Below are positions 2,893 to 31,200 of a stretch of 64,000 nt of DNA, piece after piece; position 1 is the stretch's first letter; every line of letters begins with the position of its first letter. The position numbers and the translations under genes are program-made. The DNA comes from Solen grandis. Lineage: Eukaryota; Mollusca; Bivalvia; Adapedonta; Solenidae. A model generated the notes under the pieces. The model saw only the letters and a program-made list of their open reading frames with translations. It searched no databases and was not told where the DNA came from. The stretch covers positions 54,797,311 through 54,861,310 of the forward strand of contig CM037783.1 in NCBI GenBank assembly GCA_021229015.1, given 5' to 3'.

Positions 2893-4002
2893 TTAATTTT
2901 GACTGAACCGTTGCATTATCTCTCGAATGAATTTGGTTAGATTTCTTAAAGTACACGGATCTTTACTTGACAATAGAGAGTTTGAGTCTGTTGCGTTATG
3001 TATGAATTGACAAAGGAATTTATTTCTTGCACCGTTAAAATAGTTGCAATAAAGAAGATAGTGACTTTCATCCCCGACGCTGTCTGAACTACAGAGGGTA
3101 CATTTCCTATCCTGGAGAGGTGTTCCATCGTACCGACCTGACTCCGTTTCAGTTACTTCGAAATTAGTTACGAAAGGGAAAAGATCAGGGGTAGCTATCG
3201 CATAATCTATTACAGACTTATCTCTGAATGTGTAAGCGCCAATGTTTTTGTCCTTGTGCATTCTGCCATTTAAAATGAATAGATTATTTACTCTACATAT
3301 TTCAATTAATCGTATACCATTTGTATTAGATCTGTGATCTTTGGAACACCTCTCCAGAGGAATTTCTAAATTTTCCAGGACAGTGTATTTATTCAAGAAC
3401 TCTATGCTTTCATTATCTATATCAAATATATCGTCAAATGTTGGATCGGAGGGTAAAAAATCGGACAGACATGCAGTTCTGCAGTTTGTATCTCCTATTA
3501 TGAGTACATGTTTAAATGTCGAGCATTTTTCATTTATTTCATTTTCAAATTTAAATAGATGATCATTATTAAGGAATCTTGAACCCTCAGGTGGAATATA
3601 TACTGCACCCACAATGATCGGGTCTTCTGAAAAGGATTGATGATTATTTATTTGTATCCACAAAATGTATTCACAGTCGGAATCAATAACTTTGATGTAA
3701 GGACTTAAACATTTTCGTATATATATGCCAATACCTCCGGACTTACGTTTGTACAATTGGGACCTGTGCTTTGCTATAAAATCGTATCCATCTATATCTA
3801 CAATATCAGAGTCATCAATATGCGTTTCAGAAATACAAAAAATGTCGAATTGGTTAATGTAATCAATAAAATCAGGATATTGTAATTTTCTTTTAAGTCC
3901 ATTTACATTTAAGGCACATATATTTAAGTCATTTTGTTTAATTTCATTTGCATTATAATTGTTTTTATTTTTTTCAGATGTTGCTGTTATCCCCCAAGTG
4001 TC
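2893..4002 (-). pseudogene. LINE ORF2: apurinic endonuclease domain fused to C-terminal zinc knuckle, RT missing
   Basis: Reading leftward from just after the ORF1 stop, the frame is open and encodes an endonuclease of the exo/endo/phosphatase family: ALNVNGL near the start, FCISETH, GGIGIYIRK, VGAVYIPPEG, IIGDTN and TFRDKSVIDYAIATPDLF in the usual order. The SDH motif that normally closes the fold is lost. Straight after FEV (near 3150) the frame runs into CTLC...ESHYLLYC, a CCHC knuckle that in intact elements lies at the far C-terminus, then stops at 2893. The ~500-residue reverse transcriptase is therefore deleted in frame. The frame has no ATG between the ORF1 stop and the endonuclease motifs. 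Confidence 0.8.
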
Positions 4003-5169
4003 CTAATGAAAAACGCCTGCAGTGACGTTGGACTGATTAGAATGGTCAGTGTCCCATGGACGGAAGGACTGAGTTGGACCCGCCCGTGAAGCGTGGTCGG
4101 ACCGAGTTCTACTAGGTGCTCTACGTCTTTGTCCACCCGCTGCTCGTGGTGACGTTGATTGTGGCCTGCCGCTACGGCGGTCCATGCCTGATCGTGAACT
4201 GCGAGGGCTGGCTGAAGCGTGGCTGTGTTTTGTCTGGCTGTCACGTGGAACAGTTGAAGATTTAACGGTCTGGCGTATAGGGTCAACTTGCCACTGTGCG
4301 TGCTGTGTGAATGCCGGACGTTCAACCTTTACACGATCACCCTTGAGAATGAGGTTCCATTTAGGGAACATGTCTGCATAGACATTACCGTCAATCACAA
4401 TCTTCGCCGGGAATGCCATGGTGATCTTTCGTTCAGGATAGGCTTGCTTTAGTTTTTTCATTTCTGGCCAAAGCTGCTTTCTAGCATCAGAAATTTCTCT
4501 GGGATAATCCCTGTTAATGTGAAAGTCAGTGCCCGCTAACCTGCGTGCTTTAGACAATACCAATTCAGTGTCCCGATAATCGAGAAAATAGGCAATGATG
4601 GGTCTTATCTTGCCCCTGCGGTATGGACCAAGGCGGTGAATCCTGGGGATGGCTGGACAGGGGCAGATATCAAGATTGTCTTTAAGAAAGTTCCTGATTT
4701 TGTACAGACAGTCCTCGTCAAAAGACTCGGGAATACCGGCAATAAGTAAATTGTTTCGCCTGCTGCGGGCCTCTAGGTCTATGGACTTGTATTGTAACAG
4801 TGTCAGTTTATCATCGTGTTCATTTAAGTGTGACTCAATATTACTCACTCTGCTCTGTAGAGCTACACATTTGTCTACACTCTCCCTCACACCCATCATC
4901 TCAGAAAACAATGCATCAAGTTTGTCATTAACTGATAGGGATTTGAAGTTTTTAACAGAAAACTGAGACTGAGACGAGCTCAAACGGGGACGCTTCCTAT
5001 CCTGCTTTACTGTCCATTCACCCTCATCGTCAGTGGGGTCTGACGGTTGATTGTACATAGCGTCGTCGCCATTTTGCCCGCCATTTATATCCCCCGGTTG
5101 TTGAGAGAGATGAACTTCTCCTACCTGAGTATCTGTAGAGATCTCACTTTCTCCTTCAGAATCTGACAT
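4003..5169 (-). CDS. LINE ORF1 protein (coiled coil plus RRM-like nucleic-acid chaperone)
   Basis: 388 residues from an ATG at 5169. An acidic, low-complexity N-terminus (about 1-70) leads into a coiled-coil-prone segment (about 80-130), then an L1-ORF1p/transposase_22-like core with ARSRRNNLLIAGIPE, IHRLGPYRRGKIRPIIAYFLDYRDTE and a C-terminal DYP-REISDARKQLWP block, then a basic Ser/Arg-rich tail. By family knowledge such proteins trimerise, coat the element RNA and act as chaperones. The frame is open, so this half of the element is less decayed than ORF2. It ends at TAG 4003-4005, with ORF2 next in the same frame. Confidence 0.85.
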   Translation of the reverse strand: MSDSEGESEISTDTQVGEVHLSQQPGDINGGQNGDDAMYNQPSDPTDDEGEWTVKQDRKRPRLSSSQSQFSVKNFKSLSVNDKLDALFSEMMGVRESVDKCVALQSRVSNIESHLNEHDDKLTLLQYKSIDLEARSRRNNLLIAGIPESFDEDCLYKIRNFLKDNLDICPCPAIPRIHRLGPYRRGKIRPIIAYFLDYRDTELVLSKARRLAGTDFHINRDYPREISDARKQLWPEMKKLKQAYPERKITMAFPAKIVIDGNVYADMFPKWNLILKGDRVKVERPAFTQHAQWQVDPIRQTVKSSTVPRDSQTKHSHASASPRSSRSGMDRRSGRPQSTSPRAAGGQRRRAPSRTRSDHASRAGPTQSFRPWDTDHSNQSNVTAGVFH

Positions 5170-5311
5170 TATGTTGAGGAGGTACTAATGCAGCTACCAG
5201 CAACAGTTTTATACCAGTAAAATCCGTAAACACATTGATATTTGTATTTTATTGCATGAGAGAATTTTTGTGCATGCACACAATGACCGGAACCGGAAAT
5301 ATATATATGTA

Positions 5312-9244: not shown

Positions 9245-12200
9245 TAGCTCACCTGAGCACAACGTGCTCATGGTGAGCTTTTGTGATCGCCTTTTGTCCG
9301 TCGTCCGTGCGTCCGTCGTCAACAATTTCTTTAAACAACATCTCCTTCTAAACTACTCACTGGATTTTTATAAATCTTCACAGGAATGTTCATTATGGGG
9401 CCCTTTACCAACGTTGTTAAAATTATTTTGATTGGTCAAAAATCTAGGTCACAGGAGCTAAAAATAGATTTTAATAATGAAAATTTTAAAAATCTTCTTC
9501 TTCAAAAACCACAAGGCCTAGCCTTATGATTTTTGGTATGTAGCATGATCTTATGACTCTCTACCAAGTTTGTTCAAATTATAACCCTGGGGTCAAAATT
9601 GGCCCCGCCCCAGGGGTCACTTGATTAAACATAGGCTAATATAGGAAAAAATTGAAAAAATTTCTATTCAGAAACCCTTGTCTAGTAGATCACAACAAAG
9701 TTTGTTCAAATCATGGCCCTTGGGTCAAATTTGGCCCCACAAAGGGGTCACCTGATTTTACATAGGCTAATATAGAAAAAAATTGAAAAAATTTCTTTCA
9801 GAAACCCAAGCCTTGGGTTTAGATATTTGGTGTGCAGCATTGTCTTATAGATCACTACTAAGTTTGTTCAAATCATGACCCTGGGGTCAAAATTGGCCCC
9901 GCCCCAGGGGGTCACTTGATTTAACATAGGCTAATATAGGGAAAAAAATGAAAAATCTTCTTCTCAGAAACCACAAGGCATAGAGTTTAGATATTTGGTG
10001 TGTAGCATTGTCTTATAGATCTCTACCAAGTTTGTTCAAATCATGACCCTTGGGTCAAAATTGGCCCCGCCCCAGGGGTCACTTGATTTAACATAGGCTA
10101 ATATAGGAAAAACTTGAAAAATTTTCTATGCAGAAACCCAAGGCCTTGGGTTTAGATATTTGGTGTGCAGCATTGTCTAGTAGATCACAACAAAATTTGT
10201 TCAAATCATGGCCCTTGGGTCAAATTTGGCCCCACAAAGGGGTCACCTGATTTTACATAGGCTAATATAGAAAAAACATCTTGAAAAATCTTCTTCTCAG
10301 AAACCACAAAGCCTTGGGTTTAGATATTTGGTGTGCAGCATTGTCTAGTAGATCACTACCAAGTTTGTTCAAATCATGACCCCGGGGTCAAAATTGGCCC
10401 CGCCCCAGGGGTCACTTGATTTAACATAGGCTAATATAGGAAAAAAACTTGAAAAATCTTCTTCTCAGAAACCACAAGGCATAGAGTTTAGATATTTGGT
10501 GTGTAGCATTGTCTTATAGATCTCTACCAAGATTGTTCAAATTATGACCCTGGGGTTAAAATTTGGCCCCGTACCAGGGGTCACTTGATTTAACATAGGC
10601 TAATATAGGAAAAACTTGAAAAATCTTCTTCTCAGAAACCACAAGGCCTTGGGTTTAGATATTTGGTGTGCAACATTGTCTAGTAGATCACAACCAAGTT
10701 TGTTCAAATCATGGCCATGGGGTCAAATTTGGCCCCAATTAGGGGTCACCTGATTTTACATAGGCTAATATAGAAAAAACATCTTGAAAAATCTTCTTCT
10801 CAGAAACCACAAGGCCTTGGGTTTAGATATTTGGTGTGCAACATTGTCTAGTAGATCACAACCAAGTTTGTTCAAATCATGACCCGGGGTCAAAATTTGG
10901 CCCCCCAGGGTCACCTGATTTTACATAGGCTTATATAGTAAAAAACAACTTGAAAAATCTCCTTCTCAGAAACCACAAGGCCTGGAGTTTAGATATTTGG
11001 TATGTAGCATGATCTTATGACTCTCTACCAAGATTGTTCAAATTATAACCCTGGGGTCAAAATTGGCCCCGCCCCAGGGGTCACTTGATTTAACATAGGC
11101 TAATATAGGAAAAAAACTTGAAAAATCTTCTTCTCAGAAACCACAAGGCATAGAGTTTAGATATTTGGTGTGTAGCATTGTCTTATAGATCTCTACCAAG
11201 TTTGTTCAAATCATGACCCTGGGGTCAAAATTGGCCCCGCCCCAGGGGTCACCTGATTTTACATAGGCTAATATAGAAAAAAAAGAAAAATCTTCTTCTC
11301 AGAAACCACAGAGCATGGAGTTTAGATATTTGTTATGTAGCATGATCTTATGACCCTCTACCAAGACTGTTCAAATTATAACCCTGGGGCAAAATTGGCC
11401 CCACCCCAGGGGTCACCTGATTTTACATAGGCTAATATAGAAAAAAAAGAAAAATCTTCTTCTCAGAAACCACAGAGCATGGAGTTTAGATATTTGGTAT
11501 GTAGCATGATCTTATGACCCTCTACCAAGACTATTCAAATTATAACCCTGGGGTCAAAATTGGCCCCACCCCAGGGGTCACTTGATTTACAACAAAGTTT
11601 GTTCAAATCATGGCCCTTGGGTCAAATTTGGCCCCACAAAGGGGTCACCTGATTTTACATAGGCTAATATAGAAAAAACATCTTGAAAAATCTTCTTCTC
11701 AGAAACCTCAAAGCCTTGGGTTTAGATATTTGGTGTGCAATTTGTTAAATCATGACCCCGGGGCAAAATTGGCCCCGCCCCAGGGGTCAATTGATTTAAC
11801 ATAGGCTAATATAAAAAATTGAAAAATCTTCTTCTCAAAACCCAAGCTGGTTTAGATATTTGGTGTGAGCATTGTCTATAGATCCTACCAAGTTTGTTCA
11901 AATCATGACCCGGGTCAAAATTGGCCCCGCCCCAGGGGGTCAATTGATTTAACATAGGCTAATATAGGAAAAAAAACTTGAAAAATCTTCTTCTCAGAAA
12001 CCCAAGCTGGTTTAGATATTTGGTTGAGCATTGTCTTATAGATCCTACCAAGACTGTTCAAATTATAACCCTGGGGTCAAAATTGGCCCCACCCCAGGGG
12101 TCACTTGATTTTACATAGGCTAAGAAAAAACTTGAAAAATCTTCTTCTCAGAAACCACAAGGCATAGAGTTTAGATATTTGGTGTGTAGGATTGTCTTAT

Positions 12201-15200
12201 AGATCTCTACCATGTTTGTTCAAATCATGACCCTTGGGTCAAATTTGGCCCCGCCCCAGGGGTCACTTGATTTAACATAGGCTAATATAGGAAAAAACTT
12301 GAAAAATCTTCTTCTCAGAAACCACAAGGCATAGAGTTTAGATGTTTGGTGTGTAGGATTGTCTTATAGATCTCTACCAAGTTTGTTCAAATCATGACCC
12401 TTGGGTCAAATTTGGCCCCGCCCCAGGGGTCACTTGATTTAACATAGGCTAATATAGGAAAAACTTGAAAAATCTTCTTCTCAGAAACCACAAGGCCTGG
12501 GGTATATATTTTTTTCTGTGCAGCATTGTCTTATAGATCTCAACCAAGATTGTTCAAATCATGGCCCTGGGGTCAGATTTTGCCCCGCCAAGGGGTCACC
12601 TGATTTTACATAGGTTAATATAGAAAAAAAAGAAAAATCTTCTTCTCAGAAACCACAGAGCATGGAGTTTAGATATTTGGTATGTAGCATGATCTTATGA
12701 CCCTCTAACAAGACTATTCAAATTATAACCCTGGGGTCAAAATTGGCCCCACCCCAGGGATCACTTGATTTTACATAGGCTAATATAGGAAAAACTTGAA
12801 AAATTTTCTATTCAGAAACCCAAGGCCTTGGGTTTAGATATTTGGTGTGCAGCATTGTCTAGTAGATCACTACCAAGTTTGTTCAAATCATGGCCCTTGG
12901 GTCAAATTTGGCCCCAAAAGGGGTCACCTGATTTATAGGCTAATATAGAAAAAACTTGAAAAATTTCTTTCAGAAACCCAAAGCCTTGGGTTTAGATATT
13001 TGGTGTGCAGCATTGTCTAGTAGATCACTACCAAGTTTGTTCAAATCATGACCCCGGGGTCAAAATTGGCCCCGCCCCAGGGGTCAATTGATTTAACATA
13101 GGCTAATATAGGAAAAAAACTTGAAAAATCTTCTTCTCAGAAACCAAAGGCATAAAGTTTAGATATTTGGTGGGTAGCATTGTCTAGTAGATCTCAACCA
13201 AGATTGTTCAAATCATGGCCCTGGGGTCAGATTTGGCCCCGCCAAGGGGTCACCTGATTTTACATAGGCTAATATAGAAAAAAAAGAAAAATCTTCTTCT
13301 CAGAAACCACAGAGCATGTAGTTTAGATATTTGGTATGTAGCATGATCTTATGACTCTCTACCAAGACTATTCAAATTATAACCCTGGGGTCAAAATTGG
13401 CCCCACCCCAGGGGTCACTTGATTTTACATAGGCTAATATAGGAAAAACTTGAAAAATTTTCTGTTCAGAAACCCAAGGCCTTGGGTTTAGATATTTGGT
13501 GTGCAGCATTGTCTAGTAGATCACTACCAAGTTTGTTCAAATCATGGCCCTTGGGTCAAATTTGGCCCCACAAAGGGGTCACCTGATTTTACATAGGCTA
13601 ATATAGAAAAAACATCTTGAAAAATCTTCTTCTCAGAAACCTCAAAGCCTTGGGTTTAGATATTTGGTGTGCAGCATTGTCTAGTAGATCACTACCAAGT
13701 TTGTTCAAATCATGACCCCGGGGTCAAAATTGGCCCCGCCCCAGGGGTCAATTGATTTAACATAGGCTAATATAGGAAAAAAACTTGAAAAATCTTCTTC
13801 TCAGAAACCATAAGGCATAGAGTTTAGATATTTGGTGGGTAGCATTGTCTAGTAGATCTCAACCAAGATTGTTCAAATCATGGCCCTGGGGTTAGATTTG
13901 GCCCCGCCAAGGGGTCACCTGATTTTACATAGGCTAATATAGAAAAAAAAGAAAAATCTTCTTCTCAGAAACCACAGAGCATGGAGTTTAGATATTTGTT
14001 ATGTAGCATGATCTTATGACCCTCTACCAATACTGTTCAGATTAAAACCCTGTGGTCAAAATTGGCCCCACCCCAGGGGTCACTTGATTTTACATAGGCT
14101 AATGTAGGAAAGAACTTGAAAAATCTTCTTCTCAGAAACCACAAGGCATAGAGTTTAGATATTTGGTGTGTAGGATTGTCTTATAGATCTCTACCAAGTT
14201 TGTTCAAATCATGGCCCTTGGGTCAAATTTGGCCCCGCCCCAGGGGTCACTTGATTTAACATAGGCTAATATAGGAAAAAAAAGATAAATCTTCTTCTCA
14301 GAAACCACAAGGCCTGGGGTTTGGATATTTTGTGTGCAGCATTGTCTAGTAGATCTCAACCAAGTTTGTTCAAATCATGGCCCTGTGGTCAGATTTGGCC
14401 CCGCCAAGGGGTCACATGATTTTACACATGCTAATATAGAAAAAAAAGAAAAATCTTCTACTCAGAAACCACAGAGCATGGAGTTTAGATATTTGGTATG
14501 TAGCATGATCTTATGACCCTCTACCAAGATTGTTCAAATTATAACCCTGGGGTCAAAATTGGCCCCGCCCCAGGGGTCACTTGATTTAACATAGGCTAAT
14601 ATAGGAAAAAAACTTGAAAAATCTTCTTCTCAGAAACCACAATGCATAGAGTTTAGATATTTGGTATGTAGCATTGTCTAATAGATCTCTACCAAGTTTG
14701 TTCAAATCATGACCCTGGGGTCAAAATTTACCCGCCCCAGGGGTCACTTGATTTAACATAGGCTAATATAGGAAAAACTTGAAAAATCTTTATCTCAGAA
14801 ACCACAAGGCCTTGGGTTTAGATATTTGGTGTGCAGCGTTGTCTCGTAGATCACAATCAAATTTGTTCAAATCATGGTCTTGGGGTCAAATTTGGCCCCG
14901 CCCCTGGGGTCACCTGTTTTTAATAGGTTAATATAGAAAAAAACTTGAAAAATCTTTTTCTTAGAAACAAGGCATGGAGTTTAGATATTTGGTATGTAAC
15001 ATGGGCTAATAGACCTCTACCAAGATTGTTCAAATTATGACCTTGGGGTCAAAATTGGCCCCGCCCCAGGGGTCACTTGATTTAACATAGGTTGTTTAAG
15101 GGAAAAAAATTGAAAAATCTTCTTCTCAGAAACTACAAGGCATATAGTTTAGATATTTGGTGTGTAGCATTGTCTAGTCGATTCTTACCATGTGTGTTCA

Positions 15201-15471
15201 AATCATGACGCTGGGGTTAAAATTGGCCCCCCTCCAGGGATCACTTGATTTTACATATACTTAGTTTGAAAAAAAACTAGAAAAGTCTTCTTCTCAAAAA
15301 CCACAAGGTCTGGAGTTTAGATATTTGTATGTAACATGGGCTAATAGACCTCTACCAGGTTTATTCAAATCTTGACCCTGGGGTCAAAATTTGCTCTGCC
15401 CCAGGGGTCACTTGATTTTACATAGCCTAATGATACCAGGTGAGCGATCCAGGGCCATCAAGGCCCTCTTG
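9245..15471 (+). mobile_element. Hairpin-headed element B with a ~6 kb array of ~167-bp tandem units
   Basis: Starts with the head hairpin (AGCTCACCTGAGCACAAC, then GTGCTCATGGTGAGCT) and a GTCC/GTCGTC microsatellite, and ends with CCAGGTGAGCGATCCAGGG plus the GGCC hairpin and CTCTTG. Between them are about 35 copies of a unit marked by TAGGCTAATATAGGAAAAA, CTTCTTCTCAGAAACCACA, TTTAGATATTTGGT and GGGGTCAAAATTGGCCCC. Spacing of successive TAGGCTAATATAG motifs is about 160-172 bp. Units differ by substitutions and small deletions. No protein is encoded. It lies just upstream of the exon carrying the SAMD9-like start codon. Confidence 0.9.
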
Positions 15472-15689: not shown

Positions 15690-16279
15690 GATAGCAGACA
15701 CCAGTTGACCAGTAAAAACCATCAAGATGGCATCAGAAAAAGTGCAAAATTTCTACAAAACAATGGCAATCCAAATGGATTACGGAACCCAGGTTTTGGG
15801 AGAAATTATTAAGGCGAAGCTTAGTGGAAAAACATTACAGGAACATCTGAACAATAGTCAAGTAAAACTTAAATTTAAAAATCTAGAACCATTTCAAAAG
15901 CAAAAGTTGTATCCCCAAAAAGGGTCTCCCAACATATCAAATTTAGATATTAGTTTACTGACACGTATTCTGTTGGGTTCCTTTGAATTAGAGCCAATTG
16001 AAAGGCAGCATATTTATGATATGAGAAAGATAAGAAACAAGCTTGCCCATGCTTCAAAAGCTGAACTAGAATTGAAAGATAACGATTTCAACAAAGCTAA
16101 GTATCATATTGAAGGATTATGTGAGAACTTGGACAATAACGTAAAGAAGCGAATCAGAAATGGGATATCAGAACTTTATCAGAGACAAATTGTCCAGTGT
16201 TGCAGCAGCAAAGCAAGGGTATTGATTCTGAGCGAAAGTCTAATGGTAGATATTGAGGAGACATGCATAGATGACAAAA
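15690..16279 (+). CDS. Exon 1 (coding): HEPN domain, DZIP3-like
   Basis: ATG at 15727 in good context (CAAGATGGCA) gives 184 codons ending in phase 1 at a GTAAGT donor (16280). Residues ~10-150 look like the HEPN-fold domain first noted in DZIP3 and common in mollusc immune proteins: helical, with the Rx4H motif RNKLAH at residues 103-108 inside MRKIRNKLAHAS. In HEPN ribonucleases this Arg/His pair is catalytic; whether it is active here is not known. The remaining ~35 residues link to the CARD-like exon. Confidence 0.8.
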
Positions 16280-19200
16280 GTAAGTATTTTTCCCATAATA
16301 TAAAATAAAACCGATATGTGAATAAATAAAGAAAATCTTTCTTATTCGATAAATACTTTTAATAAAAATGACTGACTGCAAAGATATTAACCTTTAAGTT
16401 ATTATTAGCTCACCTGAGCACAACGTGCTCATGGTGAGCTATTGTGATCGCCTTTTGTCCGTCGTCCGTCGTCCGTCGTGCGTGCGTGCGTGCGTCCGTC
16501 CGTCGTCAACAATTTGCTTTAAACAACATCTCCTCATGAACCGCTGAAGGGATTTTGACCAAACTTCACAGGAATCATCCTTATGATGCCCTCTATCAAA
16601 GTTGTACAAATTATTCAGATTGGTTAAAAAAGTAGGTCACAGGAGCTAAAAATAGATTTTAAAAATGCAAACTTTGAAAATCTTCTTCTGCAAAACTGCA
16701 AGGCCTAGAGCTTAGATATTTGGTATGTAGCATCATCTTATGGGCCATTACCAAGATTGTACAAATCATAGCCCTACGGTGATAAATGACCCCGCACCAG
16801 GGGTCACTTGTTTTACATAGAGTTATATAGGAAAATCTTTAAAAATCTTCTTCTATGAATCCATTAGGCCTAGAGCTTAGATATTTGGTATGTAGCATCA
16901 TCTAATGGTTCATTACTAAGATTGTTCAAATCATAGCCCTACGGTGATAAATGCCCCCGCACCAGGGGTCACTTGTTTTACATAGAGTTATATAGGAAAA
17001 TTTTAAAAATCTTCTTCTATGAATCCATTAGGCCTAGAGCTTAGATATTTGGTATGAGCATCATCTATGGTTCATTACCAAGATTGTCAAATCATACCCT
17101 AGGTGATAAATGACCCCGCACCATGGGTCACTTGTTTTACATAGAGTTATATAGGAAAATGTTTAAAAATCTTCTTCTATGAATCCATAAGGCCTAGAGA
17201 TTAGATATTTGGTATGAAGCATCATCTTATGGTTCATTACTAAGATTGTACAAATCATGACCCTATGGTGATAAATGCCCCCGCACCAGGGGTCACTTGT
17301 TTTACATAGAGTTATATAGAAAAAAACTTTAAAAATCTTCTTCTATGAATCCATTAGGCCTAGAGCTTAGATATTTGGTATGTAGCATCATCTTATGGGC
17401 CATTACCAAGATTGTACAAATCATAGCCCTACGATGATAAATGACCCCGCACCAGGGGTCACTTGTTTTACATAGAGTTATATAGGAAAATCTTTAAAAA
17501 TCTTCTTCTATGAATCCATTAGGCCTAGAGCTTAGATATTTGGTATGTAGCATCATCTTATGGTTCATTACCAAGATTGTACAAATCATGACCCTATGGT
17601 GATAAATGCCCCCGCACCAGGGGTCACTTGTTTAACATAGAGTTATATAGGAAAATCTTTAAAAATCTTCTTCTATGAATCCATTAGGCCTAGAGCTTAG
17701 ATATTTGGTATGTAGCATCATCTAATGGTTCATTATCAAGATTTTCAAAATGGTGGCCCTTTGGAGATAAATGACCCCGCACTAAGTCTTCTCCTCTGAA
17801 ACCATAAGGCCCAGTGCTTATATATTTGGTGTGTAGTATTGTCAGGGCTAAAATGTTTAAGATTGAGTTATATCAGAATTCTTGTCTGTTTAAAAACCTT
17901 GTAATCAGTTGTAGCAATGGTACTCAGGTGAGCGATCCAGGGCCATCATGGCCCTCTTGTTTTTTATTTTATAATTAAGACATTTTTAATTGCTTTAGTC
18001 CTTTAATATTTTTCAACCATACATTGGAAAATTGTAAATTTTAATCGATGTGTACTAAAATTACCTTTCCAGGTCACGAAAAATGGATAAAATATAGAAT
18101 CACAAAGTCTGCATTAGCAATGGCTAAATATCTGCAAGTAGACACATTCCTACAGAAACTGAAATCCAGTGGGGTTGTAAGTTTCACGTTTGTGAGTCAA
18201 ATCAACAGTGAATGTTTCAACAATGAAGAAACTGTGAACAAACTGGTATTGCAAATGGCTGAAGAAACAAAGCAAAATGTTCTTCAATTTTGTAAATGCC
18301 TAAGAGAATGCAATCCACTGCTTGCAGACATTGTAGAAAACAAACACGACAGTGGAAGAGAAACAGGTACACTTTTTTAACCTCACCTGAGCAAAGCTCA
18401 GGGTGAGTTATTGTGATCCCGTGATTGTCCGTCGTCTGTCGTGCGTCGTCAGTAATTTAGTGTTTACAATCTATCACCTTCATTTCTTAAGCAATTATCT
18501 TCAAACTTAAAGACAATGTTTATGACCTAAAGACAATGTTTATGACCTAAAAACAATGTTTATTACCTTACTGTCTCGATTAAGTTCGCATATTGTTGAG
18601 ATTAGTCAATTAGGTCAGGAGTTATGCCCCTTAAAAATGCAAGATTTCACTTTGTTTACACTCTAGCATCTTCATCTTTTGAGCAATCATCTTCAAACCT
18701 TATGACATTGTTTATGACCATAATGTCTCGATTGTGTTCGAATATGGCTGAGATCGGTTAATTTGGTCAGGAGTTAAGCCCCTTTTGATATCAAAATATG
18801 CCAGTTTTCAGTTTATTTACACTCTAGCATTATTAGTCTTCTGAGCAATCATTTTCAAACTTTATGACAATTTTCATGACCATAATGTCTCGATTGAGTT
18901 CGATTATGGTTGAGATCAGTCAATTAGGTCTCATTTCACTTTGTTTACACTCTAGAATCTTCATCTTTTTAGCAATCATCTTCAAACTTTATGACAATGT
19001 TTATGACCATAATGTCTCCATTGAGTTCGATTATGGCTGAGATTGGTCAATTTGTCAGTAGTTAAGGCATTCTCATCCTAATACCCATATTCCAAATCTT
19101 GTCACTTGATTGTAATTTTTCTATGAAACTGTCACTTTGAAGACATTCAAAAATAAAATATTTCACCAAGAGTTTATTCAAGTTTTATCTTATTTGGGGG

Positions 19201-22200
19201 AGATAATTCGCATATAAGTTAACATTGAAGCCTATGGAAAATATGCATTTTCTGTGAATATGAAAAAATGAATTTGATTAATGAGAAAAACTCGTGGTAG
19301 AAAGATGAATTGTATAATTTTATATGAACTTTCGTGAAAAAAATCTTAATTTTACCACTTTTGTTTAATTTTCAAGGGAGATAACTCATGACAACAAAAT
19401 AATCAATGGAAGTTAATAAAAGAAATTCTGTCACTTGTCATAACATATCAATTTGCCCCTAAAATAACCATTGTTTGACATTTTAAAAACTTATATACAT
19501 ATGTAATGTTAAATTTTATGCACCGGTTTTGATGGAATAGATCGCTATTAGAGTGGCAAGACCTTAAGCCCCTTATTATAAAAAATATGCCAGATTTCAC
19601 TTTGTTTACACTCTAGCTTCTTCGTCTTTTGTGCAATCTTCTTTAAACTTAATGACAATGTTTATTACTATTTTGTCTCTATTGAGTTCGATTATTGTAG
19701 AGATCGGTCGATTAGCTTAGGAGTTATGCCACTTTTAATGTAAAAAAAATGACACCTATGTTTATTACCATTTTGTCTCTATTGAGTTTGATTATTGTAG
19801 AGATCGGTCGATTAGGTTAGGAGTTATGCCACTTTTAAAAAAAAATGATGCCAAATTTCACTTTCATCTTCATCTTTGAGCAATCATCTTCAAACTTTAA
19901 GACAACGTTTATGATCATAATGTCTCCATTGGATTTGATTATGGCTGAGATCGGTCTATTAGGTTAAGAGTAATGTCCCTTTTAATATAAAAAATGCCAG
20001 ATTTCACTTTGTTTACACTCTAGCATTTTCATCTTTCGAGAAATCATCTTCAAACTTTATGACTCTGTTAATGACCATGATGTCTGCAATGAGTTTGAAT
20101 CTGGCTAGATCAGTTATTTAAGTCAGAAGTTTAGTCCCTTTTAATACAAAAAATGGCAAGATTTCACTTTTTTTACTCTCTACCATCTTCATTTTTAAAC
20201 AATCATTTTTAAACTTTAAGGCAATGTTTATGACCATAAGCTCTTGATCGAGTTTGATTATGGCTGCGATTGGCCAAATATATCAGGAGTTATTTTTCTT
20301 TTTATTATAAAAAATGCCAGATTTCACATTGTTATACCCAAGCGGCTTCATTTTTTTAGCAATCATCTTCAATCTTTAAGACAATATTTATGACCATAAG
20401 CTAACAATCGGGTTCAATTATAACTGATATTGGGTATTTAATTTAGGAGTTATGTCCCTTTCACTATAGAAAATAAACATAATTATTTCACTTTGTTTAC
20501 ACTCCAGAATCTTCATTTCTTAAGCAATCATCTTTCTCAGGTGAGCTATTAAGGACCATCTTGGCTCTTTTGTATTCGTCTGTTTGTATCCTCATTGTTC
20601 TCTGTGATATTCTGAAATGGAAATCACAATTATTATACTGTAGTATCAGTTATTTTCGCGCAGTCTTAATTTCGCGCTACCCTCTCTAAAGACCCTTTCG
20701 CGCGGTGCTAAATTCGCGCATTTCCCCATTTCAAAAAAAAAAAAAAAAAAAAGTACAAAAAATAGATATGAATAAATAAAAAAAATATTCATTTCGTTCT
20801 GAATGACTGATTTGGTGCCCCGGATATCGCATGCTAATTAATTACCGACTGATATGTTGGCGCTACCCTCCCCCCAGGTAAGTGACGTCATAGGGGTGGG
20901 TTACTGGTAAGGGTTACTGGTAAGTTGTTAATTAGCACCGTCTCCTAATTGCTGGGGCCAAACTGCCGAAAGATGGCCTTTCTTTTGTTATCGATTGCAG
21001 CACTTCCGGCGATCAGACAAACTATTCTCCGGGACCTTTTTGATTTACAGGTCTCACCTTGATTGTTGTATAAACAAACTGTCAACTTAGAAGGTGGGGA
21101 CATGTCAGTACAAACGATCTGCAACCATACAGTTAGTAGTAATGTTTGTTCGAAATCTGTATTTATTTTGGACCACTTTCCTAATCTTCTCGGCAAAAAA
21201 GAGTAAACATTACGCAAGCGTAAATTTCATGCACCGGTTCAACACCGGTAAAAGGCAAGTTAAAATATACAAAAATATCTTATTTTAAAAGGAATAACGC
21301 AGATTATTGATTTGATATTAGTCTCAAATAGTACACGAGTGTAAAACCCCTTGGGAAACCGTTGGTTTTATTGATCTAAGATGGTACTGATTATAAAACA
21401 ACGCATGAAATTTAGTTGTCAAAATCGGCGTCAAACAAAAAAATACCATATATATTCTTTGATTATACAGACTTAATATCGCGCGGTCCTAAATTCGCGG
21501 AAGGCCCATTGCGCGAACATCGCGAAAATTAGACCAGCGCGAACAATACTGATACTACAGTAGGTTTTAGTTTTTAGCTCACCTGAGCACGAAGTGCTCA
21601 AGGTGAGCTTTTGTGTTCGCCCTGCGTCCGTCGTTGTCCGTCGTCCGTCATCAACAATTTACTTTAAACGTCATTTTCCCTGAAACCGCTGGACAGAATT
21701 TGATTAAACTTGGCAGGGATGTTCCTTGGGTGACCTTCACAAAAGTTACAAAAATAAACTTGATCCATGTGGAACTCTGGTTACCATGGCAACGGAAAGA
21801 AAAAAATGAAAACTTTAAAAAATCATCTTCTTCAAAACTATTGGCCAGATTTCAAAATAATTTGGTACAGACGTTCCTTTGGTAACTCTCTACCAAGATT
21901 GCTAAATTATTCCGATCGGGAAAAAACATGGTATCCAGGGGCGGGGCTAATTTGCCTTTTATGTATATAGTGAACTCTTTAAACGACATCTCCTCTGAAA
22001 CAGCTATACAGAATTTGATTAAATTTGGCAAGGATGATCCTTGGGTGAAGCTTCACAAAAGTTATTAAAATTATTCTAATCCATTAAAACATGAACTCCA
22101 GGGGCGGGGCTAATTTGCCTTATATGTATAAAGTGAAATCTTTAAACGACATCTCTTCTGAAACCGCTAAGCAGAATTTGATTAAATTTGGCAGGGATGA

Positions 22201-25200
22201 TCCTTGGAAGAACAATCACAAAATTTGCTAAAAAAAAACTTGATCCATGTGGAATAGATAATATTTGGCAGGGATTATCCTTGGGTGAAGCTTCACAAAA
22301 GTTGGTAAAAGTATTCAAATCCGTAAATAAACATGGCTAGCAGGGGCGGGGCTAATTTGCTTTATATGTATATAGTGAACAATTTAAGCGACATCTCTAC
22401 AACCGCTCAGCAGAATTTGATTAAATTTGGCAGGGATGATCATTGGGTGAAGCTTCAAAAATGTTGCTTAAATTATTCCGATCCAAAAAAATCATAGCCA
22501 CCAGGGTCGGGGCTAATTTGTCTTATCGGTATATAGTGAAATCTTTAAACGACACCTCCTCAGAAACCGCTGGACAGAATTTGGTTATATTTGGCAGGGA
22601 TGATCCTTGGGTGAAGCTTCACAAAAGTTGCTAAAATTATTCCGATTCGTAAAAAAAACATGGCTGCCAGGGGCGTGGCTAATTTGCCTGATATGTATAT
22701 AGTGAAATCTTTAAACAGCATCTCCTCTAAACGGCTAGACTGAATTTGATAAAACTTTGCAGGGATCATCTCCTTCAAAACTACTGGCCAGATTTCAAAA
22801 TGTTTTAATACAGATTGATATATGGATAACCCTATACTTAGGTGAGCGATCAAGGGCCATCATGGTCCTCCTGTTAATGTCTTAATAAAGAGTTTTAAGG
22901 TCACATGAGCATATCGTGCTCATGCGAGCCTTTAGAATCAGTGGCCGTCCGTCGGCGTCGACATTGTTTTTCAAACGACATCTATAATGAAACCACTTGG
23001 CCAAATTTGATGAAAATTGCCCTAAGCTCTACCAAACTTGTTCAAATGGTCTGGTCCATTGCATATCTAGGTTACAGGAGTTTAAATAGATTTTAAAAGT
23101 GAAATCTTTAAAAACTTTCTTTTCCGAAAGCCAAAGGCCTAGAACATAGGAAGTTTGTATGTAACATGGCCTAGTGGACCTCTGCTGTGTTTGTGGAAAT
23201 CATGGCCCTTTTGTCAACAATGGCTCCGTCCCAAGGTTCACATTGTTTATATTTAGACTTCCAAAAGAAATATATACTTGTCAGAACCGCAAGGCCTATG
23301 AGCTTAGATATTTGGTTTGTGGCGCTGACTAGTGGACCTCTACCAAGTTTGTTCAACTCATTACCCTAGGGTCAAATTTAATCATGCACCTGGGGTCACT
23401 TGGGTTTTATATGACTTACGTAGGATAAAAATGTTCTCTCTCTGTCTGAGATCACATGGTCTTGAAGTTTAGATGTATGTTTTGCTTGAAACATGGCCTA
23501 GAGGATCTCTTTCAAGTTTGTTCAATCTGTGGCTCTGGGGTCAAAACTGGCCGCGTCCTTGGGGTCACTTGGTTTTATATAGACTAACATAATCTTGTCA
23601 GAGACCAGCAGGCCTGGATTTTTTATTTGTGTAAAGTGGCCTAGTGGACCTCTACCAAGTTTGTTCAAATCATGGCCCTGAGGTTAAAATTGGCTTGCCC
23701 CAGGGGTCTTTTGATTTTATATTTACTTTGAAAACTGATTTTAGCGTCAAATTAAGATTCTTAACAAAATGTCTGTTTGATGATATATTTTTTTTTCATT
23801 TTTGTCTGCACTCATTGCATCACAATTTAAAACGTTTGCTTGTTTATAGTGAAGTAACCTTGTCAATGTAATAAGCTTTTAGATTTTATTTTCATCGCCT
23901 TTCATCTCTTAATAAATTGTTTATTTTGACTTTGTTTTAGAAATGGCGCTGAAAAGAATAGAGAAAGAACAAGTGAATGAGATTCTTCAAGACAGTGTGA
24001 CTTTCAAAACATCTAATTTACTTTCAACGGAAGATGTTCATATTTTCGTAGAGAATCGTTTACTTAAGACTATACCCTTTTCTGTGATAGAAAAATGTAT
24101 GAGTGAACTGTTCGGGTTCCAGACTTTACAAGCAAATGAAAACAGGTATATTTTAATTAGTTTATTAATGGAAACGTTTTATTTTTCATCAAGTCTGACT
24201 TCTGTGAATCTAGTTATATCAGATCTTGTGACTCTCATTATATATTCTCATTCAGAATCGTTTAAGATTATTGTATTGTTATTAATTGATATCTGGATAT
24301 ACATGCATTGGGTTCGCTATGTTAGTTGATTGTTATCACTTTACGACCACAGTCACATACACAGCAACTATATCAAATTTGTTTTTATTGTTAATATGAC
24401 TATATATTTTTATCTCAAAATTCTTTTAATATCACAATATAATTTTGAATATTCTTCACGGTAAATTCTTGGCATGAATAATATATATACAGGACTCTGC
24501 TGATTATTAGTTGTTCTATAAGATATTAAAAAAGTAATAAATAAAAAGCTCTAAAATCTCAATATTAAGATCACCTACCGACATTTTAGGATGATCTGAA
24601 AATGAAGATTAGGCATAAAATAAGGAAAAGGGTTACTTAATTATATAATTCAGCGATCTGTAAAACTTAGATTTGTCAACCATTAGATATTAAATTGAAA
24701 ATAATCTAAAAGCTTTTGAGTACATTACTACAGTTTTTTTTTTACGCTCGTGTCCTTTTTAGCTCACCTGAGCACAACGTGCTCAAGGTGAGTTTTTGTG
24801 ATCGCGCTTTGGGTAATGTGGGTCAAAAATTTGGCCATGAGATCAAATCTTAGAAAAAATTTATTATGCTCTAAAGGCCGCATGTTTGGCCCAATCTTCA
24901 TGAAACTTGGTCAGAATGTTTGTTTCCATAAAATCTTGGACAAGCTCGAACTTGGGTCATGCGGGATCAAAAAGTAAGTCACGAGGTCAAATCTTAGGTC
25001 AAATCTTAGAAAATATTTGTTAATGCTCTAAATACCACAATTTGGCCCAATTTTCATAAAACATGGTCAAAATGTTTGTGTCTATAAAATCTTGGACAAG
25101 TTTGACTTTGGGTCATGTGGGGTCAAAAAGGAGGTCATGAGGTTAAATCTTAATAAAAATTGTGTAAACCCTCTAAATGCCACATATTTAGCCCAATCTT

Positions 25201-28200
25201 CATGAAACTTGCTCAAAATGTTTGTTTCTATAAAATAATGTGGGGCCAAAAAGTAGATCATGATGTCAAATCTTAGAGAAACCTTGAAAACCCTTGTAAA
25301 TGCTCTAGAAGCCACGTTTTTGGCCCAATATTCATAAAACTGTCAGAATGTTTGGTTTGAAGTTGGGTCATGTGGGGTCAAAAAGTAGGTCAATATGAAA
25401 AATGCAACATATGTTGCTCATTTGTAATCAGGTGAGCGATTCAGAACCATCATGGCCCTCGTGTTTTTTGTCCTAGGTATCTTTCATTGATGTTTTGCAG
25501 TTTTCGGGATGTGGCCTGGAAGGATGATCCTTTTAAAATGAGAGAGTCGTCTGCTCCACCAAGTATAATTAATCCGTTTGTTACTTAGAACAAACTGATA
25601 TTTAGTAATATATAAAATAAATGATGATTCTGATAAAGGTAGGTTAGCCTTATACCGGAAGTTATACTCGTTAATGGACCAGCTAGCGTGACAGGAGTAA
25701 TCGTTTGTTACTTACTTGGTTGTAACAAAAACATTATTAATATGAAATGGAGGATAAGTGCTGTAGCTTCATCTGTATCAATTACGTAATTCAACTTAAT
25801 ATGTTAACATTAATTTAGAAAAAGAAAACTGGGTGAAAACACATTATGCATTTCTATTTTTATTAAGTGTTTTTTTTTCTGCATAGAAATATATATACAT
25901 GTAATAAACTGTATCATATTGAGTAGATATATACATGTAGTAAACAGTATTATATTGAATACATTTGTATAACTATAGTTTTAAATCAAAAGGCCAAATT
26001 TTGGTAAGAGTAATCTTACATTCTGATATTCTTTTAACAATATTTCCTACTTTTTCTTTAATGCTTTAGGTGAAGATAAATCTTTTATGCTGATGGATCA
26101 TGAACAGTTCGGATTGTATATTGAGAAAAACTTTGGAGCAAAATGGAAACCGTTTCGCAAAGGATTTGCAGAAGCTGTACGTAATGAATGGTTAGAACCA
26201 GAAACATTTATGACAATGACAACCGACGAAATTAAAATCGTTTTAAGTAAGTACATTGAAACTATTCCTTATGGATTTATTCTTGCCTTACAAAAACTTC
26301 AAAAAGAAATCAGGAATGGCATTGACAAAACCGTCGGTGATGCTGCTTGCACACTCCGAAAATTTGACACCCCTACTGGGAATTGCATATATCAGGCAGG
26401 AAATGTGTTAGTAGCAAGAGGAAACCTTTTGGTTCCAACTCACCGTTTTGTGTCCATGCAAGAAAAGGATGGACATATGAAAGATTTCATTGTGAAAGAA
26501 GTAATTCGTTTTGCTGTAGGTTGTATAAATGCTGCAAAAAATGGAACAATACACTTTGGCATTGCGGAGAATGAAAATGGCGGAACTATTCATGGAATTT
26601 CAAAGCAAGATAATTTCAGCGAAGATTTCCTGAATACTGAAATATTAAAAGGATTCGATAATTGTTTCTGTTCTGAAGAGGCAGTGTTTGCAAAGAGATG
26701 CGTTCGCCCTATTCAAATGATTCCAACTACTGAAAAACTGTTTGTTTTGGAAGTTGATATTGTGGCTTTCTCAGAATACTTAAAGCCAAATCTTGTGATA
26801 ATAAATTTCCCGCCAAAAGGGAAACAGTCGTTAGTTTGTGTTTATTATAACAACGATCATCTAATAACAACGGGCGATTTAAATGGGGATGAACAATGCG
26901 AACTTAACAATTTAAAATCAAAAGTTGTATCGGAGAGAAGAAATCTGGAAACAGAAGTTTCTTTGCAAATGTCTTCGGAAAAAAAACTTGGGAAAAAATT
27001 GGCCGCGCTTCTTACAAAAGAAAATAAGTATGTTACAGATGAATTTTTACCTGTAATATGTATTGGAAATTTATCTGGCCTACCACTCGAAGAACAGCAT
27101 AGAAAAGATATTGATTTGAGTCGCGCATTGTTATCTTGTAGATATGTTTTCGACTTTGATTCTAGTGTATTAATGAGGAATAGTGTTGAAATGGAAAAAT
27201 CTTCTTTCCATATCGTCATGGTGAATGAATCTTCAATGAAAGGAGATTTTGATACGAACGAAAAAATGTGGATATACTGCAATGGGAATAAAGAATTATC
27301 ATGTGATGCTATGAACTCAAAAGACTGGTGTAGAGATAGACACGGAAAAGTAAAAAAAATACTTGATGATTGTCGGAATCATATTCCTGAGAATAGGGCC
27401 TGTTTTATATTCATGATATTTGAGGAATTGAAAGAAGACGACCCAGTATATGAGATTGCTCGTGAATGCCTGTTATATACATTTAAAAATGAATGTATCA
27501 TTTTAGCGGAAAATGACACATATGTAAAAACATTGAAACAGATAGTTGCAAGACGTTTTGGAGATAACTGCGCAAACAAGTACTTTTTCACAAATCTGAA
27601 ATGGCCAGATATTTCAAAAATTGTAAATTCTGTTTTTAAAAAGGAAAGTGAACGAGTTTATAAACTTCCTAATTCCAATGGCCACTACGATGAAATGACA
27701 GCTTATGAAAAAGATACGCTCAAATTAGATAATATTGACATTTTGAGTGGCGAAATGTGCATTTGGGAACATGAGAATATGACAAGAGAGGACATACAGA
27801 ACAACCAATCAGAGTCCCAGAATTACTTTTATAGAGGTAACCAGGTTTCATGGTGGAATTTTTATTTTGAATCTCATGTTGGAAAACGTGATTTGTTTGA
27901 TACCTATAAAAAGAAAGTCAAGTCACTGTTAACCGAGGACAGTGATAAATTGAATGAAGTTTTTATCATAAGACATCATACAGGTGCTGGAGGCACTACA
28001 GTTGGACGACATCTTTTATGGCATTTTAGTCAGTTTCATCAAGAACCAGAGGATAAGTACCGATGTTGTGTTGTGGAAAGTGTGACAGACGATACAGCAA
28101 ATCAAATAGAAAGGTTCAGAAACTTTAAAGATCGCGATGCAAAGCCAGTAATAGTGTTAGTTGATAACATAAAAGATGACGATTTGGAATTGTTGATTTC

Positions 28201-31200
28201 TGGTTTGAAAAAAGTATCCTACCTGAAGGGTGTTCCTGGGAAACTGTTCAGCGTCATTATCCAACTGTGCAGAACACCCATTTCGGCGGCTTGCAATGAA
28301 AAAAATACAAATGTTCTGAAACATAAACTTTCTCAAAAGGAAAAAATGTGGTTTGAAGAAAAGTATGCACATCTTGAGAAGACGGATGGAGTGATCGTAG
28401 ATACATTAATAGCATTCAATGTAATGCGGCATTCATTTGCCCCAGAATTTATGGAAAAAATAGCTCAGGACATACTTAAGGATACCACGGCAATGGACCT
28501 ATGTGTCCTGAAGTGCTTGTCTTTAATAAGCTCTTACAATATTGATGATCCTGTACCAGTGAGCATCTTTGATGACAGTATCTTCGGAGGGTTTTTCGAA
28601 ACACACAAGAATTTGCGCTTTGGAGTTATGAAAATGATGAGAGAGAGACAAGAAATGAATCAAAAGGGACAAAACATATTAAATATAGCCATGTCAAACG
28701 CTTTGAATTTACTTGTTACAAAGCGAAAATCGCCTGATTCCTACATTGACGGAATTTCAATAATATCACAACCACTAGCACGAAAAATATTGGATCATAT
28801 CTTGAACAGAGAAAAAATGCTGATCAAAGAAATGGTTTATTATGTACTGAAACTCGTTGAAAAGCATGCACAAATGCTAAACCCACAGTCCAAAAAATTT
28901 GTCAGGATTGTTTGTAGTTTGTTTAAGATAAGGCAGGTAATCGAAAGTGAAAAGGGGGATAAGAAAACAAAGTTCTCTGATTTAGTGCAAGAAATGGCTA
29001 ATGCGAAGCAAGAGGAAATCATGATTCACACAAAGATGTTGTTGAAGCAATACAAAGATGTTTTGACATAACCAAAGACGCAATGGTTGGGCAACAGCTT
29101 GCACGGTATTATATTCACATACATAAATTTGAAGATGCTGAATCGGCTATAGAATTGTCAATTCGACAAAGACCTCAAAGCTCTTATCTCTTAGATACCT
29201 ACGGTCAGATATTCAAAACACAACTTGAATTCGAGTTGGATGAAATTTCAAAAAGAGATCATGATAAAATAGAGAGTGCTGAAGTAGAACGTCTTGTAGG
29301 TTTAGCAGTTAAAGCTGTTAAAACGTTTATTGCTGGGCAAAAGGTAGCAAAGTTAGAGGAAAGTGAATTGAACTTAAGTTGTTTTCATATGGAACTGAAA
29401 ACAATTTTCTTCATCCTTGAAAAACTCGAAAACAAATTATACTGTTTTGAAAACCGTCGAGATTTTTCAAGATTTCTTTTGGACAAAACAGACATGAACA
29501 ATTCACTTAAGCTATTTCAAAAAGGAAGCGATATCCAGATACACATGGAAGAAACCTTACGATTTCTGGAGGAAAATGATTATCAGGTTAAAAAAAGTAT
29601 GTTCGTTATCTATAAGGATAATGATGTTTTACTTTTAAATTTTAGAGAAAGATATGAACTTGTATATGGTGATCCATCGGAAAACTATCGGTTCCAATTC
29701 AGCTTAGGTCTAAAACCACTAATGAATGCACATGTAGAAAATGAGACGCTTCTTATGAAGCGAGTAAATGTAGCTGAAGACAATATTGAAAGGAAAGGAT
29801 ACACACATGCTGACTTCAGAGATTTACTGGTATTATTGGGATATAAAATAATACTCATGTCCTCATTAGGAGAGGAAAAGTATTATGATTATCAAAAGCT
29901 ACTTAATCTAAGTACAGTATTGCTCGATTCCCAAAGAAAAAGAATAGAGAGACATGGAAGACCTTATTTAGAGGGATTTCTCTATCATGCTATTTTACAC
30001 TGGCCTTTATCAACAAGAACTGAAAGTCATAATTTATGTGCACCAAAGACATTTTGTAACATCCTAGAGGAATGGAGCGAAGCTTATGATCAAAATCAAT
30101 TTATTCATTGTAAAGACGCAAAAAGGAAAAACAAACCAAAGCATTTTCTTGCTTTAGGTACCGGAGAACCAGGTAAAGACATTGTTGATTTAGAAGCTGT
30201 TAGAAAAGTCTGGAGGCAAACCAAAAAAGAAAAAGAAGGTCGTAGCAGACAAGCTGTATTCAGCGACTACTTTTGGACGGATCCGTCTGTCCGAGGATAC
30301 CTACTAAGACTTGAAGGTGTTGTTGATGATTCTGGACATTGTATCAAATACAAGGTATGTGTAATAGCTATTTCCCCCAATGTAACCTTTACCCAGGCGT
30401 TAGAATTTTCGCGTTAAACATATGTATTTTTATTGAAATTACAAATTCCGTTTCTACATACCGAGCAGTGATATTTCTGAATTTTGTGATTTTTTTATCT
30501 CTGAGGTCAATCACTTTTGTTTCTTTATCAATCATTAAAAAAAGACGATGTAATTTTACTGTTATTTCAGAATTGTATTTTTTTTTTTCATAATCAGGCT
30601 TGTTATAGAAGTGGGACCCACGTTTTCAAAATAAATACGTACTATCCATGCCATGCGTTTGTCAACCGACCCGTCACCTTTATTTTGGGATTTTCGTGGA
30701 AAGGACCTGTTGCTTTTGACGTTGAAGAGAAAAGTATGTATGTTTTCCACGATTCACTTTAAATCGACCTTCATACCTAATGTACATTGTTCAGAAATAC
30801 AAAATATTTTCTCTTCATTCTCATTAACTAAAAACCCGAAAACCCTGATAATGGCCCCTATCACAACTTTTTTATATTATTTAAATTATAAAAACACTGT
30901 ATAATTCTGTGATATTTGTGGTAGGGAAGGAAACACATTCGATACCAGATCATGTCGACGGTGAAAACTCGCAACCTGAAGATAATGAGGAAAGCAAAGG
31001 AAAATCTAGTGGTTTGGAATGTTCCCTTTATTTTTATTATCCCCGAACTTAAAGAATATGACTTATTGTTCATTATGTTCCGACTTATTAGTCCCCACCG
31101 GTAAAACCGGTTGGGGACTATAGGTTTGCGTACGTCCGTCCGTCCCGCTTTCGTGTCCGCTCCATAACTAAAACATTTATGGACAGATTTCAATAAAACT

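Follow-up and report, generated by a model that had tools for sequence, protein, structure and literature searches.

In a 64,000-nucleotide stretch of the Solen grandis genome (GCA_021229015.1, contig CM037783.1, positions 54,797,311 to 54,861,310; hereafter the window), one gene on the forward strand, reaching from an exon start behind a splice acceptor (15690) to the end of exon 6 (30733), joins a HEPN domain, a CARD, and an RFX-like winged helix to the core of SAMD9, and the same fusion was found in the clams Mercenaria, Ruditapes, and Mya. The predicted domain order is HEPN, CARD, RFX-like winged helix, helical stretch, AlbA-type tRNA-cleaving nuclease (tRNase), SIR2-like region, STAND nucleoside triphosphatase (NTPase), TPR, and OB. 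Sequence comparison supported this order, its conservation, an intact HEPN motif, and an altered tRNase site. We lean toward regarding the window gene as a member of a family of SAMD9-type STAND proteins in clams, an account that, taken with the mechanism proposed below, we hold on balance to be probable.

Exons 1 to 4, and exon 5 from 26070 onward, have gt/ag borders and share one frame (Table 1). The Mercenaria mercenaria protein P0033 matched exons 1, 2, 3, and 6 in order, with E values of 2.5e-16, 5.5e-15, 6e-4, and 7e-12, and also matched the core; exon 4, with its 62 bases, was too short for a match of its own to relatives. In Mercenaria, Ruditapes, and Mya, proteins encoded as one continuous chain matched the window exons in order, and the HEPN motif Rx4H was present in 10/10 proteins with a complete front, indicating a conserved family of fusions rather than an artefact of gene modelling. 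Two separate genes were thereby ruled out at the family level, because single proteins span the exons.

Relatives were collected with a core query, which gave 30 matches, and a profile query, which gave 20 (12 of them new), making 42 proteins. Only the candidates sharing most words were scored (7991 and 7990), so further relatives surely exist and 42 is a lower bound. When residues 1-350 were used as the query against the large protein set, none of 2698 candidates reached E <= 0.001; HEPN-bearing relatives were thus reached only via the core. A complete HEPN and CARD front was carried by ten proteins: the window protein, P0005, P0019 and P0039 (Mya arenaria), P0022, P0024, P0031, and P0033 of Mercenaria mercenaria, and P0035 and P0042 of Ruditapes philippinarum. 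The models of P0034, which is outside the ten, and P0021, both from Mercenaria, start within the HEPN domain and within the CARD, respectively. For many further members only a single exon is predicted, so that the front is out of view, and HEPN is not claimed for every member. The source sequences of P0022 and P0005, at 7382 and 4883 bases, are too short for introns of the size seen in the window, which suggests that they are transcripts.

Exon 1 matched Pfam HEPN_DZIP3 with E 5.4e-8 and 33.2 bits (cut-off 27), and its catalytic-type motif RNKLAH is intact, with R103 and H108 among the 8 invariant columns of the exon 1 alignment (6 rows). Rx4H was kept in all ten full-front proteins, the window counted, P0005 having T after R. 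A leave-one-out HEPN profile found 10/10 of these proteins (worst E 7.5e-23; window row E 2e-37), and none of the oyster-type and urchin proteins fell below E 5.5, nor any of 200 shuffles below E 2.2. Both the DZIP3/hRUL138 profile and the Rx4-6H pattern thus place exon 1 in the HEPN superfamily, and the domain is likely a ribonuclease (RNase) domain. By structure, Foldseek with the HEPN model returned nothing at E <= 0.001, its top row being a flavohemoglobin, and no HEPN structure was among the VIA-align rows shown for the P0042 model.

The CARD of exon 2 was matched by Pfam in 6/11 homologous members (best E 4.8e-5), the window row itself being unmatched, and the predicted structure of a relative showed a six-helix death fold. 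The leave-one-out CARD profile detected the window (E 1.3e-25) and 10/10 full-front proteins (worst E 2e-15); oyster-type and urchin proteins reached E 0.49 at best and 200 shuffles E 0.0052, the weakest control of the three profiles. Exons 3 and 4 gave, in the predicted structure of a relative, an RFX-type winged-helix fold, which the preliminary description of this sequence had not noted. The corresponding profile found 10/10 full-front proteins (worst E 1.3e-13; window exon 3 E 6e-16) and no oyster-type or urchin protein at E <= 1, the best of 200 shuffles being E 3.0. Given that the fold matches while no RFX family was among the Pfam matches of 13 members and the profile had no PDB match, we named the domain RFX-like, not an RFX member. 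The leave-one-out profiles are not fully independent, since their alignment columns came from all rows, the window included.

The exon 5 piece as a single sequence aligned with human SAMD9 PDB chains over residues 116-832 (E 3.4e-33), and a 20-row family profile matched human SAMD9 with E 2.6e-116 together with a further stretch at the C terminus. The same profile matched IFIT5 TPRs with E 0.00044; a PDB search with the second-frame piece of exon 5 alone gave nothing relevant. AlbA, SIR2-like, STAND, TPR, and OB parts therefore follow in SAMD9 order, the SIR2-like part by alignment only, and by its sequence the window protein is a SAMD9 family member. Its P-loop, HHTGAGGTT, shows the GGT/S form with an upstream histidine and unusual glycine that characterizes this family (PMC5445408). 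Pfam matches of the window pieces included no NACHT or LRR (leucine-rich repeat) families; the NTPase aligned with SAMD9. The helical stretch at the start of exon 5 found no SAM domain in Pfam for 10 members, and its hhalign probability of 0.3% equalled that of the controls. Against PDB, the profile of this stretch gave as best rows an OPA1-type dynamin (E 0.006) and a 70-residue L3MBTL3 chain (E 0.52), which we take to be a SAM domain. P0042, the protein that was modelled, lacks part of this stretch. The SAM domain is limited to vertebrate SAMD9 members and not required elsewhere, according to the same source (PMC5445408).

The preliminary description had thus read the gene correctly in part. 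The one-phase exons, the HEPN domain with RNKLAH, the CARD-like domain, and the SAMD9-type second half held up, as did the statement that human SAMD9 and SAMD9L lack HEPN and CARD; its SAM-like domain found no support. It had also asked predicted structures to show HEPN and death folds, of which the death fold appeared.

The tRNase site is the part of the core that departs most from human SAMD9, whose activity requires four acids (E184, E196, E218, and D241) and three basic residues (K198, K214, and R221) (PMC12331169). At these sites MAFFT placed A, R, E, and E and V, F, and R in the window, phmmer placing V at the E184 site; one of the four catalytic acids and one of the three essential basic residues are thus kept, and the residue set of tRNase-SA is incomplete. 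Among the HEPN-bearing proteins, E184 was kept in 0/9 scorable, E196 in 4/9, E218 in 8/10, and D241 in 1/10, K198 in 0/9 scorable and K214 in 0/10, and the R221 site held R in 6/10 and K in 2/10. The oyster-type proteins P0026, P0027 (Ostrea edulis), and P0028, in which HEPN was undetected, kept 7/7 residues (3/3 scorable). In this comparison P0029, P0040, and P0041 were unscorable, P0030 was excluded, P0023 and P0025 were not meaningful, and P0042 lacked part of the region; P0034 was also labelled HEPN-bearing in it but is not counted among the ten. The pattern is consistent with the HEPN lineage having lost its older nuclease.

A first tree of 32 rows (without P0015, P0031, P0033, P0036, P0039, P0001, P0005, P0029, P0030, P0038, and P0042) was followed by a midpoint-rooted tree of 39 rows (without P0001, P0030, P0033, and P0042). 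In the latter, 33 rows formed one clade (100/100), in which the members with a known name belong to Mercenaria, Ruditapes, and Mya, with oysters and Lytechinus outside. Nine HEPN-bearing rows were scattered over this clade, so that its ancestor probably already had HEPN; the window sat on a long branch in an unsure position.

Some members differ at their ends. P0025 carries within residues 1-160 a HEPN domain with RNVAIH followed by a SIR2-like region, its model having no CARD, winged helix, or AlbA, and is either an effector form with HEPN alone or wrongly annotated. P0022 showed a Death-domain match at residues 1883-1941 (E 0.0011, just below the cut-off), which would be a second death-fold domain, at the C terminus. 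At the N-termini of P0027, P0028, and P0029 something ubiquitin-like was matched weakly (E 1e-4 to 1e-3, below the cut-off), so that the shared core would have another kind of front there. The Mercenaria SAMD9-like genes P0021, P0024, P0031, P0032, P0033, and P0034 all lie on contigs of 74149818 bases, and the family is probably clustered on one chromosome.

The window copy is broken in exon 5 as assembled, a feature absent from the preliminary description. Its first frame is open until a stop at 29069-29071, and the conserved sequence continues in another frame, open from 29002 to beyond the donor at 30354. Matches of relatives ended in the first frame at median 29008 (n=38) and started in the second at median 29023 (n=33), individual ends extending up to 29068. 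Downstream of the break 437 codons remain open (29044-30354), and relatives with a continuous, unbroken protein exist. The copy is either recently inactivated, as a pseudogene, or affected by an assembly error, and the break leaves the family-level fusion untouched.

Table 1. Features of the HEPN-CARD-SAMD9 gene in the window (forward strand)
Feature	Position	Strand	Evidence or remark
Putative 5′ untranslated part of first coding exon	15690..15726	+	Follows splice acceptor ending 15689; read from sequence
Exon 1, 184 codons, HEPN domain of DZIP3 type	15727..16279	+	
HEPN catalytic-type motif RNKLAH (R103, H108), intact	16033..16050	+	
Exon 2, CARD	18073..18366	+	
Exon 3, most of RFX-like winged helix	23941..24145	+	
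Exon 4, last strand of winged helix and linker	25501..25562	+	Phase, borders, alignment
Exon 5, SAMD9 core with frame break, donor at 30354	26070..30354	+	
Helical stretch earlier called SAM-like	26093..26330	+	No SAM match by Pfam, PDB profile, or hhalign
AlbA/Schlafen-like tRNase module, degraded active site	26393..26873	+	SAMD9 tRNase structures, residue table; limits approximate
SIR2-like region (name from PMC5445408)	26903..27775	+	Alignment to human SAMD9 only; limits approximate
STAND-type NTPase	27809..28564	+	SAMD9 alignment residues 581-832; Pfam nSTAND_NTPase5 E 0.0012, below cut-off
P-loop HHTGAGGTT, family's glycine replacing lysine	27974..28000	+	Sequence
Reading-frame break stretch	29005..29068	+	Relatives' matches in both frames
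TPR region and beginning of OB region (437 codons, in second frame)	29044..30354	+	Family profile against IFIT5 TPRs, human SAMD9
Exon 6, end of OB-fold region	30598..30733	+	tblastn matches of 11 relatives; C-terminal SAMD9 match of family profile
Possible tail exon and stop codon	30925..31052	+	Open translation, not conserved; putative

Around the gene, a satellite-like array (9678-15431, period 168, 34.6 copies) ends about 260 bases upstream of the first coding exon, and a related array of 6.6 copies occupies much of intron 1 (16701-17782). Repeat ends of the AGCTCACCTGAGCA type were matched 22 times across the window (<=2 mismatches) against 0.24 expected, for example at 16407, 18380, 24761, and 34280; several lie in the gene's introns, one directly after exon 2, and the repeats are probably a dispersed mobile element. 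On the reverse strand, two adjoining open frames at 2893-5184, the downstream one matching Exo_endo_phos (E 6.7e-6, above the cut-off), are probably a retroelement of the long interspersed nuclear element type. A search of Rfam gave 0 matches.

Compared with known systems, the closest are human SAMD9 and SAMD9L (PDB 9zjr, 7ksp), which share the core, including the GGT P-loop, but have a SAM domain, no HEPN, CARD, or winged helix, and an intact tRNase site in place of the mostly replaced one here. Oyster SAMD9-like proteins (P0026-P0029) likewise share the core but by profile have neither HEPN nor winged helix. From invertebrate hosts including Mollusca, relatives of SAMD9 that bear CARD, Death, Pyrin, or FIIND domains have been described (PMC5445408); there too the core lies behind a death-fold domain, but the available text mentions neither HEPN nor an RFX-like winged helix. 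HEPN-NACHT receptors of Pinctada fucata (PMC9646362) place a DZIP3-type HEPN with Rx4H before a nucleotide switch, which, however, is a NACHT NTPase, often with LRR, TPR, or WD40, the portion of the paper available reporting no SAMD9 core. Animal DZIP3/hRUL138 HEPN proteins (PMC3710099, Table 1) mostly conserve Rx4-6H and include CARD, NACHT, and TPR fusions, but SAMD9 has 0 occurrences in the text available, and HEPN in bivalve death-fold proteins has been published (PMC8195603). The likeness to prokaryotic Avs STAND defence proteins, with N-terminal nuclease, central STAND switch, and C-terminal sensor (PMC13245274), is one of working principle only, and no membership is claimed. No report of a HEPN-SAMD9 fusion was found in the literature searched, most subscription papers lying outside that search: papers naming SAMD9 and HEPN concerned, by title, Cas12a3 and haematology; SAMD9 together with bivalves gave a paper on SOX2 in a scallop; SAMD9 together with clam gave none; and no title from broader searches concerned such a fusion. 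The building blocks are ordinary, and their combination is real, conserved, and apparently new.

HEPN RNases, such as Csm6 and RNase L, often work in pairs. SAMD9 itself is viewed, in a published model, as a STAND switch able to open up and form oligomers (PMC13245274). Taken together, these suggest proximity-triggered RNA cleavage with recruitment through the CARD. At rest the protein would stay closed until a cue, detected by the C-terminal half, opened it, the winged helix or AlbA perhaps reading nucleic acid; nucleotide-dependent oligomerisation would pair the HEPN domains into a composite RNase site; RNA cleavage would arrest the infected cell; and the CARD would recruit death-fold partners. 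We infer RNase activity and an antiviral role for this family, and the main effector in the HEPN branch would likely be HEPN rather than the AlbA tRNase. The presence of the fusion in several other clams suggests an old virus sensor refitted with a different weapon. As a tentative extension, possible although we would not call it probable, an antiviral SAMD9 protein in one clam lineage may have swapped the tRNase built into it for a HEPN RNase: a nuclease was added in front and stayed intact, and the older one lost catalytic and tRNA-binding residues. SAMD9 would thereby have turned into a HEPN RNase that is switched on by oligomerisation, reads through its winged helix, and signals through its CARD, much as bacterial Avs proteins can exchange the effectors at their N termini. 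The residue loss is one contrast between clades and follows no clean rule: P0037, whose front is unseen, has four acids, and P0014, P0038, and the HEPN-bearing P0035 have three.

P0037 and its four acids would also suit an AlbA module that goes on working as an RNase through a rearranged site, HEPN being a second cutter, as would the retention of E218 and E196, the E at the D241 site of the window, and the tolerance of rabbit SAMD9 for a change at one essential basic site (PMC12331169). However, K214 is lost in 10/10 and K198 and E184 in 9/9 scorable HEPN-bearing proteins, and charge reversal at the human basic sites abolishes function (PMC12331169), making two working nucleases unlikely. The preliminary description had counted two candidate RNA-cleaving modules in a self-contained sensor, switch, and effector; its interpretation is partly supported, but the second module is doubtful because the AlbA/tRNase site is degraded. 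HEPN might alternatively be a non-cutting RNA-binding or dimerisation part of a protein that is mainly a CARD scaffold for death signalling. Some HEPN families are indeed inactive and serve in binding (PMC3710099), and CARD/Death SAMD9 relatives have been proposed as apoptosome-like hubs (PMC5445408), but an Rx4H kept in every full-front protein, among the few invariant exon 1 positions, is hard to explain without activity, and we regard this scaffold as quite unlikely. That the front exons of the window are a separate HEPN-CARD gene, or that the whole locus is a decaying pseudogene, seems very unlikely: the intron separating exons 2 and 3, about 5.6 kb long and rich in repeats, the frame break, and the long branch speak for it, whereas the phase is held over five exons, continuous proteins of three named species span the exons, and 437 more codons are open past the break.

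Poxviruses meet a host barrier in SAMD9 and SAMD9L, which are also disease genes in humans. They depart from other eukaryotic STAND proteins in having their effector built in (PMC13245274). A lineage with a worn-looking effector and an added, different nuclease amounts to a natural experiment. Should HEPN be active in it, the SAMD9 core would be a switch of general use, to which various effectors can be coupled. Bivalve immunology also gains a concrete, multi-copy candidate sensor-effector.
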